64,000 nucleotides of DNA from Hyphomicrobiales bacterium (GTDB taxonomy: Bacteria; Pseudomonadota; Alphaproteobacteria; Rhizobiales; Rhizobiaceae). Below are positions 51,490 to 54,493 of the stretch, one piece after another (the first letter of the stretch is position 1; each line of letters begins with the position of its first letter). The stretch is taken from assembly GCA_900473795.1 (NCBI GenBank), contig UCMT01000005.1, positions 186,001 through 250,000 on the forward strand. Reading direction: 5' to 3'. The notes beneath the pieces were generated by a model. It did no database searches and was not told where the DNA came from. It was given only the letters and a program-made list of their open reading frames with translations. Position numbers and translations under genes: made by a program.

Positions 51490-52578
51490 TCAGGCCTCGA
51501 TCTGCACGTCCCCAAGCGGACGAGAACAGCAGGCGAGGATGTAGCCCTCTTCGATCTCGTCGTCGAGGATGCCGCCATTGTGCTGCATATCCACCTCGCC
51601 TGAGACCTTCATGACGCGGCAGGTACCACAGAGGCCGCCTTCGCAGGCAGCGCCGATGCGCACGCCGGCAGCGCGGGCGGTCTGCAGGATGGTCTGTCCG
51701 GGCGCGCACCTGGCTTCCTTGCCGGCCATGGTGAAGGTGATGGTCGAGACCGCATCACCATCGACCTCGGCACTGATCGCGAGCACCGCCGGAGCCGGCG
51801 GTGCCGCCGGCTGGAAGCTTTCCTCGTGATAGCGGTTCATGTCGAAGCCGACGCTTTCCAGCATGGACTTGACGCCGCGCATGAACGGCTCCGGCCCGCA
51901 ACAGAACACGGTCCGCTCACGGAAATCCGGTGCCAGCAGAGCCAGTTTCGAGGTCTCGATACGGCCGCGCAGGCCGTGCCAGCCGTGGCGCGGCGCGTGG
52001 GTTTCGACGATGAAGCCGAGATTGAGGTTCGGCATGTTGCGGGAGATGTTCTCGAGTTCGTCGCGGAACAGCAGGTCGTCCGGCTGGCGGGCGCAGGAGA
52101 GAAAGCTGACATCCGTCTGCGGCGCGCAATCGGCCATCCAGCGGGTCATCGACATCATCGGCGTGATGCCGGAGCCGGCGGAGATGAACAGGTATTTTTC
52201 GCCCGGATGGCGGACGAAGGAGAAATCGCCGAGCGGGCCGAAGGCCTTCAGCTTCATGCCCGGCTTCAGGTTCTCGAACATCCAGCGTGTGCCAATGCTC
52301 GATGCCTGCGCCTTGACGGTCACGGCCACCGAGAAGGGCCGCGACGGCGTCGAGGACAGCGTATAGGTGCGCATCACCGGATCGTCCGGCGTTACCGGCA
52401 GTTCGAGCGTGACGAACTGACCCGGCAGGTAGCGGAACCAGCTGTCCTTGTCGGCCTTGAAGCCGAAGGTCATCACATCCGGGGCTTCGGTCGTGACGGA
52501 GATGCATTCCAGAAGATGCTGCCGGTCGTTGAACGGCTGCAATTCGTCGAAGTGCCGGAAGGATGAGGCGATCGTCAT
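51490..52578 (-). CDS. Rieske-oxygenase partner reductase (GbcB-like, FAD/NAD/2Fe-2S)
   Basis: 362 residues supplying electrons to the Rieske oxygenase upstream. FAD domain: RTYTLSSTPSRPF near 81. NAD domain: SAGSGITPMMSMTRWM near 143 and TVFCCGPEPFM near 230. The C-terminal plant-type ferredoxin domain has the cluster cysteines in AACEGGLCGTCRVMK near 315-325 and a last one in LACCSRP. This FAD-NAD-2Fe2S order is that of GbcB/stachydrine- and carnitine-type demethylase reductases. ATG 52578 lies 1 bp beyond the oxygenase stop. Both are under the cobalamin riboswitch upstream. Confidence 0.9.
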   Translation of the reverse strand: MTIASSFRHFDELQPFNDRQHLLECISVTTEAPDVMTFGFKADKDSWFRYLPGQFVTLELPVTPDDPVMRTYTLSSTPSRPFSVAVTVKAQASSIGTRWMFENLKPGMKLKAFGPLGDFSFVRHPGEKYLFISAGSGITPMMSMTRWMADCAPQTDVSFLSCARQPDDLLFRDELENISRNMPNLNLGFIVETHAPRHGWHGLRGRIETSKLALLAPDFRERTVFCCGPEPFMRGVKSMLESVGFDMNRYHEESFQPAAPPAPAVLAISAEVDGDAVSTITFTMAGKEARCAPGQTILQTARAAGVRIGAACEGGLCGTCRVMKVSGEVDMQHNGGILDDEIEEGYILACCSRPLGDVQIEA

Positions 52579-52579
52579 G

Positions 52580-53824
52580 TCAGGCAACCCGGACCAGAGG
52601 GGTGGAAGCTCCATGCAGGCGATCCTGCATGAAATTGACGTACCATTCGACGAACTGCATCACGCCGCCTTCGTGCTCCGGGGAGTAGGGGCCGGGCTGA
52701 TAGGCGGGCGAGCGGATGCCGAAGGCATTTTCCTCGACGATCTGGCGATCCTGGTCGTTGGTCTCGGTCCAGACATGCGTCAATTCCTCGAGGTTATAGT
52801 CGACACCTTCGACGGCATCCTTGTGCACCAGCCACTTGGTGGTGACCTGGGTCAGTTCGGGCCCGAGTGGCAGAACGCGGAAGGTGATGGCGTGATCGGC
52901 CAGGACGTGGTTCCAGGTGCTCGGATAGTGGAACAGCAGCAGCGTGCCGATATGGCTCTGGCTGACATCGTCGGAGAGCTGGCGCTTGACGGCGGGCTTG
53001 CCGGACATGGTGTAGCTCTCGGCATCTTGGATCAGCGGCATGCGGGCAACGCGGAACTGGCCGGTCGGCGACATCCTGAATTCGCTGGGCAGGCCCTCTG
53101 CTTCGCATTTCGCCCAATGGGCAGCGATGATCGGATCGTCCTTGGCGCCCTGCACGCCGGTTGCGGTCGGCGCTTCCGGATAGGTGCGGCAGAGCTCGGG
53201 ATGGTTGGCGGCGCAGTGGTAGCACTCGCGGTTGTTTTCCCAGACGAGTTTCCAGTTGCCCTTCTCGATGATCGTGCTCTCGTAGGCGACCTTGGTGTCC
53301 TGCAGATTGTGCGGCGTGACATAGGACGACACCATGTCGCGCGTCGGCTGGAAATCCATCGGCTCGTCGGCGAGGCAGATGAAGATATAACCGCCGATGG
53401 TTTCGCAATGGATGGCTTTGAGGCTGTGCTGCGCCTTGTCGAAATCCTCGCCCATCTGGCGGGCGAAGAGCAGCTTGCCGTCGAGCTCGTAGGTCCACTG
53501 GTGATAGGGACAGACAAGCTTGGCCGAAGACCCTTTCTGGCCGGCGCAGACGCGCGAGCCGCGGTGGCGGCAGGAATTGTGCAGCGCCCGGACGGTGCCC
53601 TGGCGATCACGGACGATGACGACCGGATAATCGCCGACCTGGACGGTGAAATAGTTGCCCGCCTTCGGAATTTCGCAGTCATGGCCGATGAACAGCCAGT
53701 CCTTGTACCAGATCTGCTCCATGTCGAGCTTGTAGAGATCGGGATCGGTGTAGAAGGCCTGCTCCAGGCTATGCCCGTCACGGCGGGTCTTGAGTTTGCG
53801 GAGGACTTCGCTGCGGAGATCCAT
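52580..53824 (-). CDS. Rieske oxygenase, alpha subunit (GbcA-like N-demethylase family)
   Basis: 414 residues. The N-terminal Rieske domain has C-x-H and C-x2-H cluster ligands in SCRHRGSRVC near 84 and LVCPYHQWTYELDGK near 104. The catalytic domain has the mononuclear iron motif NNRECYHCAANHPEL near 207, with two His and a Glu/Asp elsewhere. It resembles GbcA, glycine betaine monooxygenase, and related stachydrine or carnitine demethylases, which release formaldehyde from N-methyl groups; the substrate cannot be told from motifs. ATG 53824 follows AAGGAAAC; the frame extends further but without support. First gene after the cobalamin riboswitch. Confidence 0.9.
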   Translation of the reverse strand: MDLRSEVLRKLKTRRDGHSLEQAFYTDPDLYKLDMEQIWYKDWLFIGHDCEIPKAGNYFTVQVGDYPVVIVRDRQGTVRALHNSCRHRGSRVCAGQKGSSAKLVCPYHQWTYELDGKLLFARQMGEDFDKAQHSLKAIHCETIGGYIFICLADEPMDFQPTRDMVSSYVTPHNLQDTKVAYESTIIEKGNWKLVWENNRECYHCAANHPELCRTYPEAPTATGVQGAKDDPIIAAHWAKCEAEGLPSEFRMSPTGQFRVARMPLIQDAESYTMSGKPAVKRQLSDDVSQSHIGTLLLFHYPSTWNHVLADHAITFRVLPLGPELTQVTTKWLVHKDAVEGVDYNLEELTHVWTETNDQDRQIVEENAFGIRSPAYQPGPYSPEHEGGVMQFVEWYVNFMQDRLHGASTPLVRVA

Positions 53825-53955
53825 GTTCGTTTCCTTGTGCTCGCCACTTTTCGGTTGAGCGGACAGGAAAGGAACCACCACCGCGCCGGGAGTGCGCGTG
53901 GATATACTGGTTCGCCTTCCGGCTGCCCGCCGCAACCAAGACATCAATTTCGCTT

Positions 53956-54124
53956 CAAGGCTGGTTTCCGGGCTCAGGAGCTGTCCTTTCGGACCATCGC
54001 GGCGCCTTCCCGGATCTCTCCAGTGGCCTTTTGCCGAGGTTTCGCTCCACCACCGTTGCGGGGGCAGCGCCGGATTTCGACCGGCTTCCCAATTCTCCGC
54101 CCTCCCTATAAAGGCGGCACCTTG
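53956..54124 (-). promoter_or_regulatory. Cobalamin riboswitch upstream of the Rieske oxygenase operon
   Basis: Read on the minus strand, the conserved cobalamin-element blocks appear in order: GAAGCCGGTCGAAATCCGG, then GCTGCCCCCGCAACGGT (54052-54069), GCCACTGG, GGGAAGG, and the B12 box AGCCCGGAAACCAGCC (53959-53974). Closing helix P1 pairs CAAGG (54120-54124) with CCTTG (53956-53960). The element ends 131 bp before the oxygenase ATG. A 6-nt complement to the Shine-Dalgarno core (AAGGAA) occurs at 53869-53874, so sequestration of the ribosome site is possible. These are the hallmarks of Rfam Cobalamin riboswitches. Confidence 0.92.
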
Positions 54125-54493
54125 AGTGTCTTCATCTAATCAAGCGACGCGGTCGGACAGCCGCCGATTAGCGACATCCGGTTCCAGAAAGACGACACCG
54201 CACAGTTAGGTTTCCAGATGACCTGGAGCGGCTATTTTATCAGCAGAAACAATGGTCTTTCCTGTTTTTTCGGCAGATGGCGCCTTTTCCGCCACACGCT
54301 GCCAAATTTTGTGCAAAGACTGTCTCTTTGCGACATCATGCGGCGCGATGGCCCGATCGACGCGCAAGCTTCGCACCATGGCGCGCGGATAAGGCTTGGA
54401 AAGACTGCATTAACCGTCGCAATGTAGCTTCTCCTCATAGGCGTTTCCGACCCGGCGCATCCTGGTACGCCGGCGCAATCCTGGTGCAGGCCG
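54125..54493. other. Intergenic stretch without a recognised gene
   Basis: The 369 bp between the riboswitch and the next gene on the plus strand show no coding signal or RNA element that could be recognised. It should contain the promoters of the riboswitch operon (minus strand) and of the 54494 gene. Confidence 0.5.

Follow-up and report, generated by a model that had tools for sequence, protein, structure and literature searches.

A cobalamin riboswitch leads a two-gene operon for a GbcA-like Rieske oxygenase and its GbcB-like reductase in the stretch of DNA analyzed here (the window; 64,000 nucleotides of a Hyphomicrobiales bacterium of the family Rhizobiaceae, assembly GCA_900473795.1, contig UCMT01000005.1, positions 186,001 to 250,000 of the forward strand). 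The same genome carries an mtgBCDE gene set; among related genomes, riboswitch and mtgC occur together and appear to have been lost together, and in some other families gbcAB adjoins mtgCD or other B12-related genes. We consider GbcAB to be, quite probably, a B12-independent, O2-dependent stand-in for MtgBCD that is repressed by B12, like MetE for MetH. It also seems likely that in several alphaproteobacterial families an RNA switch thereby chooses how glycine betaine loses a methyl group: in the presence of B12 by cobalamin-dependent transfer to tetrahydrofolate and methionine, in its absence by O2-dependent release as formaldehyde. Direction of control, substrate, and physiology are what we infer from the genomic evidence.

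A search of the whole window against Rfam (cmscan, gathering thresholds) gave a single match, the cobalamin riboswitch RF00174 at 53942-54139 on the minus strand, with 112.7 bits versus a gathering score of 31.5. The match is full length (model 1-189 of 189) with an E value of 1.9e-27, which rules out a chance match. The first-pass annotation, made from the sequence by eye, had placed a cobalamin element at 53956-54124 on this strand, directly before the oxygenase and reductase genes. Its element falls inside the Rfam match, the conserved core and B12 box that it named are both present (at 54068-54053 and 53974-53959), and the reductase gene directly follows the oxygenase gene, whose ATG lies at 53824. 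The features of the operon are as follows, with the positions of core and B12 box counted by hand along the sequence.

53942..54139, minus strand: cobalamin riboswitch aptamer RF00174; full model match, second-best among the six RF00174 matches in the genome.
54053..54068, minus strand: invariant core GCTGCCCCCGCAACGG (window letters); columns invariant across 20 aligned leaders.
53959..53974, minus strand: B12 box AGCCCGGAAACCAGCC (window letters); conserved in leader alignments.
53921..53937, minus strand: P13-like hairpin GGTTGC-GGCGG-GCAGCC, putative expression platform; pairing and covariation across 20 rows.
53831..53836, minus strand: Shine-Dalgarno-like AAGGAA before the oxygenase ATG; role presumed from its sequence.
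52580..53824, minus strand: gbcA-like Rieske oxygenase, 414 amino acids; PF00355 and PF00848 over cut-off.
51490..52578, minus strand: gbcB-like reductase, 362 amino acids from the ATG at 52578 (374 from the ATG at 52614); PF00970, PF00175, and PF00111 over cut-off.

The 20 aligned leaders come from a set of 68 whose element is intact (that of the window plus 67 loci), and a single row (L079) departs in the B12 box, reading AGTCC instead of AGCCC. The hairpin behind the B12 box forms all 6 pairs in 20/20 rows, 3 of them varying on both sides, and sliding the partner strand by 1 to 3 columns left no pair with such two-sided variation. In every row the loop strand of the hairpin is able to pair with the invariant core (duplex of -17.9 to -30.1 kcal/mol). 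Corrinoid riboswitches have a similar kissing-loop element, P13/L13 (PMC10653944), and the P13-like hairpin may accordingly kiss the aptamer. Within 53700-54400, no intrinsic terminator or sigma-70 promoter was found on the operon strand; two terminator-like sites in this region are both on the opposite strand.

The genes flanking gbcAB look like housekeeping genes from a reading of the predicted proteins, so gbcAB can be regarded as a two-gene unit. The Pfam domains of its two proteins are Rieske, Ring_hydroxyl_A, FAD, NAD, and Fer2 only; since no B12 domain is among them, the enzyme itself should need no B12. As to the names GbcA-like and GbcB-like given in the first-pass annotation, the GbcA and GbcB models are indeed the best NCBIfam matches, but both proteins stay below the curated cut-offs (NF058607, 536 versus 670 bits; NF058606, 372 versus 500 bits). 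Ten scanned homologues likewise had NF058607 as their sole NCBIfam match at E ≤ 1e-60, every one below the cut-off. On a 76-row tree the oxygenase belongs to an alphaproteobacterial clade that is separate from gammaproteobacterial GbcA and from a homologue on pSymA of Sinorhizobium meliloti, which we take to be the stachydrine demethylase Stc2. Plain membership in the GbcA equivalog was ruled out by score and clade, and membership in Stc2 by the separate position of the pSymA protein. The oxygenase shares 98% identity with a Rhizobium herbae HU44 protein (L028), so the source organism is probably closely related to that strain. It is 57% identical to the pSymA homologue, the same as to other alphaproteobacterial relatives; identity to nine GbcA proteins over the cut-off is just 46 to 49%. 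The nearest solved chains are 3n0q, 3vca, and 4qup. Oxygenase and reductase are likely to work like GbcAB.

The window genome holds further Rieske paralogues. One (G000:C24; L022 8639-15012) is 33% identical and adjoins two DMGDH-like genes; none of the six RF00174 matches of the genome is near it. Another (G000:C41 18000-52000; L021, L026) groups with the pSymA protein and lies near transposase-like genes. This paralogue comes with a reductase-like gene and shares its contig with an MttB-family gene; together they are perhaps a second set of one oxidative and one B12-dependent demethylase, acting on a different betaine.

The riboswitch of the window is one of six RF00174 elements in the genome. 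The other five lead nrdH-nrdI (PF00462, PF07972), bluB (TIGR02476 over cut-off), cbtB-cbtA (PF09489, PF09490), cobU-cobW-cobN (PF02283, PF02492, TIGR02257), and a periplasmic-binding-protein/FecCD-like transporter on contig C46 (PF01497). We read this transporter as btuFCD-type; it matches the periplasmic-binding family, with no B12-specific model over cut-off. The nrdH-nrdI riboswitch (C44; L016 6617-7346, near 26 kb) leads these two genes only: among the predicted genes no nrdE or nrdF follows, and the next are transporter-like genes on the opposite strand. The genome encodes metH (1744 bits), and no metE was found with model TIGR01371.

A B12-dependent partner is encoded on contig C34, which carries genes for a pterin-binding protein (mtgD), an MTHFR-like protein, a B12-binding protein (mtgC), MttB (mtgB), and a homocysteine methyltransferase (mtgE). 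Behind mtgE stand genes that we read as choline/betaine transport genes and then riboswitch-led cob genes. MtgBCDE was described in 2025 in Ruegeria as a system for cobalamin-dependent betaine demethylation and methionine synthesis, in which MtgC and MtgD serve both the demethylation and a split methionine synthase, and in S. meliloti the MtgBCDE genes and a cobalamin operon were reported to be colocated (PMC12478193). The mtgBCDE products of the window genome are predicted to act on glycine betaine as well. In total, the genome holds four MttB-family genes.

A stand-in role of GbcAB for MtgBCD predicts that the riboswitch is retained only in genomes that encode MtgBCD. We pooled the top 80 gbcA loci of named genomes and the 27 loci at ≥62% identity, besides the window's own, from an order-level set of 397 genomes. 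These gave 108 rows including the window, of which 106 were scorable; L078 was left out, as was L088, whose upstream region is cut by the contig end. mtgC was scored as present at E ≤ 1e-40 and mtgB at E ≤ 1e-180. Riboswitches were scored by sequence patterns and a covariance model built from 14 of the leaders, and Rfam confirmed the presence of the element for a subset and its absence at 10 riboswitch-less loci. In this main gbcA clade, an intact riboswitch was found in 87 rows with mtgC and in 0 rows without it. The riboswitch was absent or damaged in the other 19 of the 106 rows, 4 with mtgC and 15 without (Fisher's p 6e-15, kinship ignored). Two outcomes that the first-pass annotation had named as refuting its proposal, lack of a significant RF00174 match and absence of the element from orthologous loci, therefore did not occur: the match is strong, and most orthologous loci have the element.

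To account for kinship, the rows were placed on the gbcA tree, which is not the species tree. The mtgC-less rows form about seven groups, and the program minima are 6 changes for mtgC and 9 for the riboswitch. Six independent pairs gave a mean of 5.3 concordant and 0 opposite (median sign-test p 0.06); with neighboring clades included, 8 pairs gave 6.0 concordant and 0 opposite (p 0.03). Support for the link between riboswitch and mtgC is modest after this correction.

The betaine-specific gene follows the same pattern in the order-level sample: mtgB was found in 24/24 genomes with a riboswitch-led gbcA (main and neighboring clades) and in 0/6 main-clade genomes without mtgC. Outside the main clade, the next clade comprises 4 rows with riboswitch and mtgC and 4 with neither; a third has both in 1 row, mtgC only in 7, and neither in 1; and in the three rows that include the pSymA protein, mtgC is present and the riboswitch absent. 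Taken together, the 155 scorable rows comprise 92 with both, 0 with the riboswitch only, 26 with mtgC only, and 37 with neither, which indicates that mtgC is needed for the riboswitch but not sufficient. Many of the mtgC-only rows are homologues that probably act on another substrate. Among further loci, the element was found on 4/11 from other families of the class, all four matched by Rfam, and on 0/9 from the rest of the phylum. In a phylum-wide sample, 27 genes scored above the GbcA cut-off and none of them carries it, so the riboswitch is not a general feature of gbcA.

Two mtgC-less lineages keep recognizable but damaged riboswitches. In L038, L039, L041, and L051 the aptamer is altered in the core and the B12 box and scores 91 to 94 model bits; intact elements reached at least 125 model bits in the scan that included this group and at least 99 in another scan. 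With 57.9 Rfam bits, the damaged L038 element still exceeds the gathering score. In L097 and L103 both ends are left around an internal deletion (28 to 33 model bits, below Rfam gathering). These six loci offer a possible natural series for riboswitch loss. The 15 mtgC-less genomes each have at least 2 to 5 RF00174 matches among the matches listed. Each of the four L038-type genomes has three of these listed matches; even the strongest reaches just E 1e-17 to 1e-19, a weak value, and the damaged element itself may be among the three.

The gbcAB pair of the window genome and that of S. meliloti Ak57 each stand by themselves and have the same neighbors; in other genomes the riboswitch-led pair has different ones. 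Two genomes (G230, G343) have it between a formate-tetrahydrofolate ligase gene and a cluster of the order mtgC-DUF1638-like-...-mtgD-...-RACo, and each of them holds a second, riboswitch-less homologue. A gene between mtgC and mtgD in this cluster was considered as MTHFR, a candidate that was rejected as it has no match in Pfam or NCBIfam. G041 has riboswitch-led gbcAB next to a DMGDH-like and an MttB gene. Genes of known B12 isoenzyme systems are also found nearby: G171 shows the order nrdA-nrdB-gbcA-gbcB with one riboswitch before each gene pair, G180 has nrdAB upstream of riboswitch-led gbcAB, in G240 metH precedes it, and in G057 metH is near gbcAB, with binding-protein/FecCD transporter genes coming after. 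The organization in G136 is gbcA-gbcB-fdhA (fdhA over the TIGR02819 cut-off), close to a GbdR-like regulator gene and divergent from a gene for a TonB receptor. This receptor gene has a riboswitch of its own, and its best model is the B12 receptor, below cut-off. Among mtgC-less genomes, the homologues in L064, G058, G366, and G237 stand with DMGDH-like and choline/betaine-transporter-like genes, and those in G108, G105, and G246 with DMGDH-like genes only (the match in G246 is partial).

Additional riboswitches were seen in some of these genomes. At least 11 RF00174 matches were found in G171 (L120). Rhizobium tropici PTD1 has a second riboswitch near gbcA on the other strand (L049 3895-4080, minus strand; 132 model bits), and divergent pairs of cobalamin riboswitches, back to back and with one of each pair leading gbcA, are present in L230, L134/L186, and L128.

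The proposed mechanism would work as follows. Abundant adenosylcobalamin, or a related corrinoid, would bind the leader RNA, the downstream hairpin would kiss the aptamer, and gbcAB would be repressed. Glycine betaine would then be demethylated by the cobalamin-dependent MtgB-MtgC-MtgD system, which would hand the methyl group to tetrahydrofolate and, via MtgE, to homocysteine. When B12 runs short, gbcAB would be derepressed, and the Rieske oxygenase and its reductase would use O2 and NAD(P)H to strip off the methyl group, which would leave as formaldehyde. Betaine would thus remain usable, and scarce B12 would be spared for MetH, because the genome has metH and, by the model used, no metE.

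Several observations weigh against GbcAB as a B12-repressed stand-in for MtgBCD. We infer repression from the riboswitch class, and one activating corrinoid riboswitch, the first such member, has been described (PMC10653944). The leader does not fold better than shuffled sequences (z -1.30; 11/100 shuffles fold as well), and unusual stability of the leader was dropped as evidence. As for the substrate, the oxygenase misses the GbcA cut-off and its clade is apart from gammaproteobacterial GbcA, and the G000:C24 paralogue is perhaps another betaine or dimethylglycine demethylase. The window gbcAB is not near the mtg genes. Counting the damaged but detectable elements of L038, L039, L041, and L051 as present turns the main-clade table into 87/4/4/11 (both, riboswitch only, mtgC only, neither; p 6e-9). 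About 6 to 8 independent comparisons are left after kinship (p 0.03-0.06). Finally, L072, L083, L092, and G170 have mtgC and no riboswitch, and Rfam found none at these loci. The gbcA gene of G170 adjoins an OYE-type gene, the sole candidate reason among the four.

The same regulatory logic could apply to another quaternary amine, such as stachydrine, carnitine, or a related betaine, with an MttB-family B12-dependent route of its own, an alternative that we regard as unlikely yet the most serious of those considered. It would fit the four MttB-family genes of the genome and the closer similarity of the oxygenase to the pSymA homologue (57%) than to the nine over-cut-off GbcA proteins. However, the pSymA protein and the G000:C41 paralogue belong to another clade, one without the riboswitch. 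Riboswitch-less homologues with mtgC also often adjoin an OYE-type gene; it stands next to those of other clades in G308, G332, G370, G259, G213, and G196 and next to the riboswitch-less second copies in G230 and G343, all of which we read as stachydrine-type. The riboswitch-led gbcAB in G230, G343, and G041, by contrast, adjoins mtgC-mtgD or a DMGDH-like gene, and the mtgC-less relatives adjoin DMGDH-like and choline/betaine-transporter genes. Alternatively, what the riboswitch tracks might be MtgC-MtgD-MtgE in their role as a split methionine synthase, and not betaine demethylation. MtgC and MtgD do have both roles in Ruegeria (PMC12478193), and metH is found beside gbcAB in G240 and G057. 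Against this, the predicted chemistry of GbcAB cannot yield methionine, the window genome has metH, and the betaine module mtgB matches mtgC in its pattern of presence across the order-level sample; with identical patterns, the two roles are not separable there. We consider this explanation improbable.

The first-pass annotation had offered three meanings for the riboswitch-led oxygenase. That it replaces a B12-dependent demethylation is well supported, with mtgBCD in the genome and an intact riboswitch only where mtgC is present. Its second proposal, a balance between a methyl donor and corrin synthesis, is kept here as a rival in which low B12 induces gbcAB for formaldehyde-derived one-carbon units and for glycine, in alphaproteobacteria a corrin precursor, and not as a replacement of MtgBCD. 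Betaine feeding is reported to raise the B12 yield of industrial producers (PMC8123684), and the other five riboswitches of the genome lead genes for B12 synthesis, cobalt or substrate uptake, and ribonucleotide reductase accessory functions. Taken alone, though, this proposal does not predict the link of riboswitch and mtgC, nor that the riboswitch is lost or decays without mtgC while other RF00174 elements persist, and we give it slightly less weight than the methionine synthase explanation. The third meaning, that the oxygenase modifies a corrinoid or a lower-ligand precursor, has its membership in the B12 regulon in its favor. It did not hold up, and we regard it as very improbable: the near solved relatives include 4qup, deposited as a demethylase; the gene persists in genomes that lack mtgC and have a lost or damaged riboswitch; and at loci whose neighbors were read, gbcAB adjoins betaine, one-carbon, B12-uptake, and B12-isoenzyme genes and no corrin-synthesis gene.

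A cobalamin riboswitch before SMc00982 of S. meliloti had already been listed (PMC2245857, PMC2573895), and SMc00982 has been described as a likely dioxygenase gene (PMC2848018). The listed S. meliloti intergenic region (954440-955076, 637 bp, between divergent genes) has the same length as that before the gbcA orthologue of strain Ak57, whose riboswitch scores 100.3 bits. Given this equal length of 637 bp, SMc00982 is very probably the orthologue of the window gbcA. Among the papers listed in searches mostly outside subscription journals, we found none that links this riboswitch to betaine demethylation. A 2003 comparative study may have reported an oxygenase/ferredoxin pair (possibly named ardX/frdX) behind alphaproteobacterial B12 elements, although the papers listed for these gene names show nothing on B12 elements in titles or the openings of abstracts; if such a report exists, it would lower the novelty of the observation and leave the link to mtgC untouched. 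The main text of PMC3766115 contains a category for isoenzymes of B12-dependent enzymes, and the words "betaine," "Rieske," and "dioxygenase" are all absent from it. PMC12478193 does not discuss a B12-switched stand-in in its main text, which uses "riboswitch" a single time, within the title of a cited work on glycine.

Should GbcAB prove to be the stand-in for MtgBCD, a further riboswitch-governed pair of B12-dependent and B12-independent enzymes would join MetH/MetE and NrdJ/NrdAB, and the rule of B12-switched isoenzymes would come to cover the degradation of a major osmolyte. The uncharacterized dioxygenase gene SMc00982, whose B12 element has been listed since 2007, would also gain a function, and B12 or cobalt supply would decide whether betaine methyl groups in rhizobia go to folate or to formaldehyde. 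The finding bears on betaine use in S. meliloti, for which a demethylation route distinct from Bhmt was argued from older mutant data (PMC12478193).

Compared with known systems, the arrangement resembles metE/metH and nrdAB or nrdEF/nrdJ in that RF00174 precedes a B12-free enzyme while a B12-dependent system for probably the same reaction is encoded in the genome, as described for metE (PMC2211319, PMC9600662). It differs in that gbcAB would serve a catabolic N-demethylation instead of the synthesis of methionine or deoxynucleotides, and its partner is a three-part methyltransferase. To the best of our knowledge, it would be the first such riboswitch-governed pair in a catabolic pathway. With the GbcAB monooxygenase it shares the Rieske oxygenase with a flavin/Fer2 reductase and, in G136, the nearby fdhA and GbdR-like regulator genes; unlike GbcAB, it falls below both curated cut-offs, forms a separate clade, and is riboswitch-led, as none of the 27 over-cut-off genes is. 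The Stc2 stachydrine demethylase, represented here by the pSymA homologue and the chains 3vca and 4qup, belongs to the same Rieske subfamily (about 57% identity), whereas Stc2-type rows belong to a different clade and had no riboswitch where tested. MtgBCD(E), encoded in the same genome, shares with gbcAB the proposed first step from glycine betaine to dimethylglycine but, unlike gbcAB, transfers the methyl group to tetrahydrofolate in a cobalamin-dependent manner.

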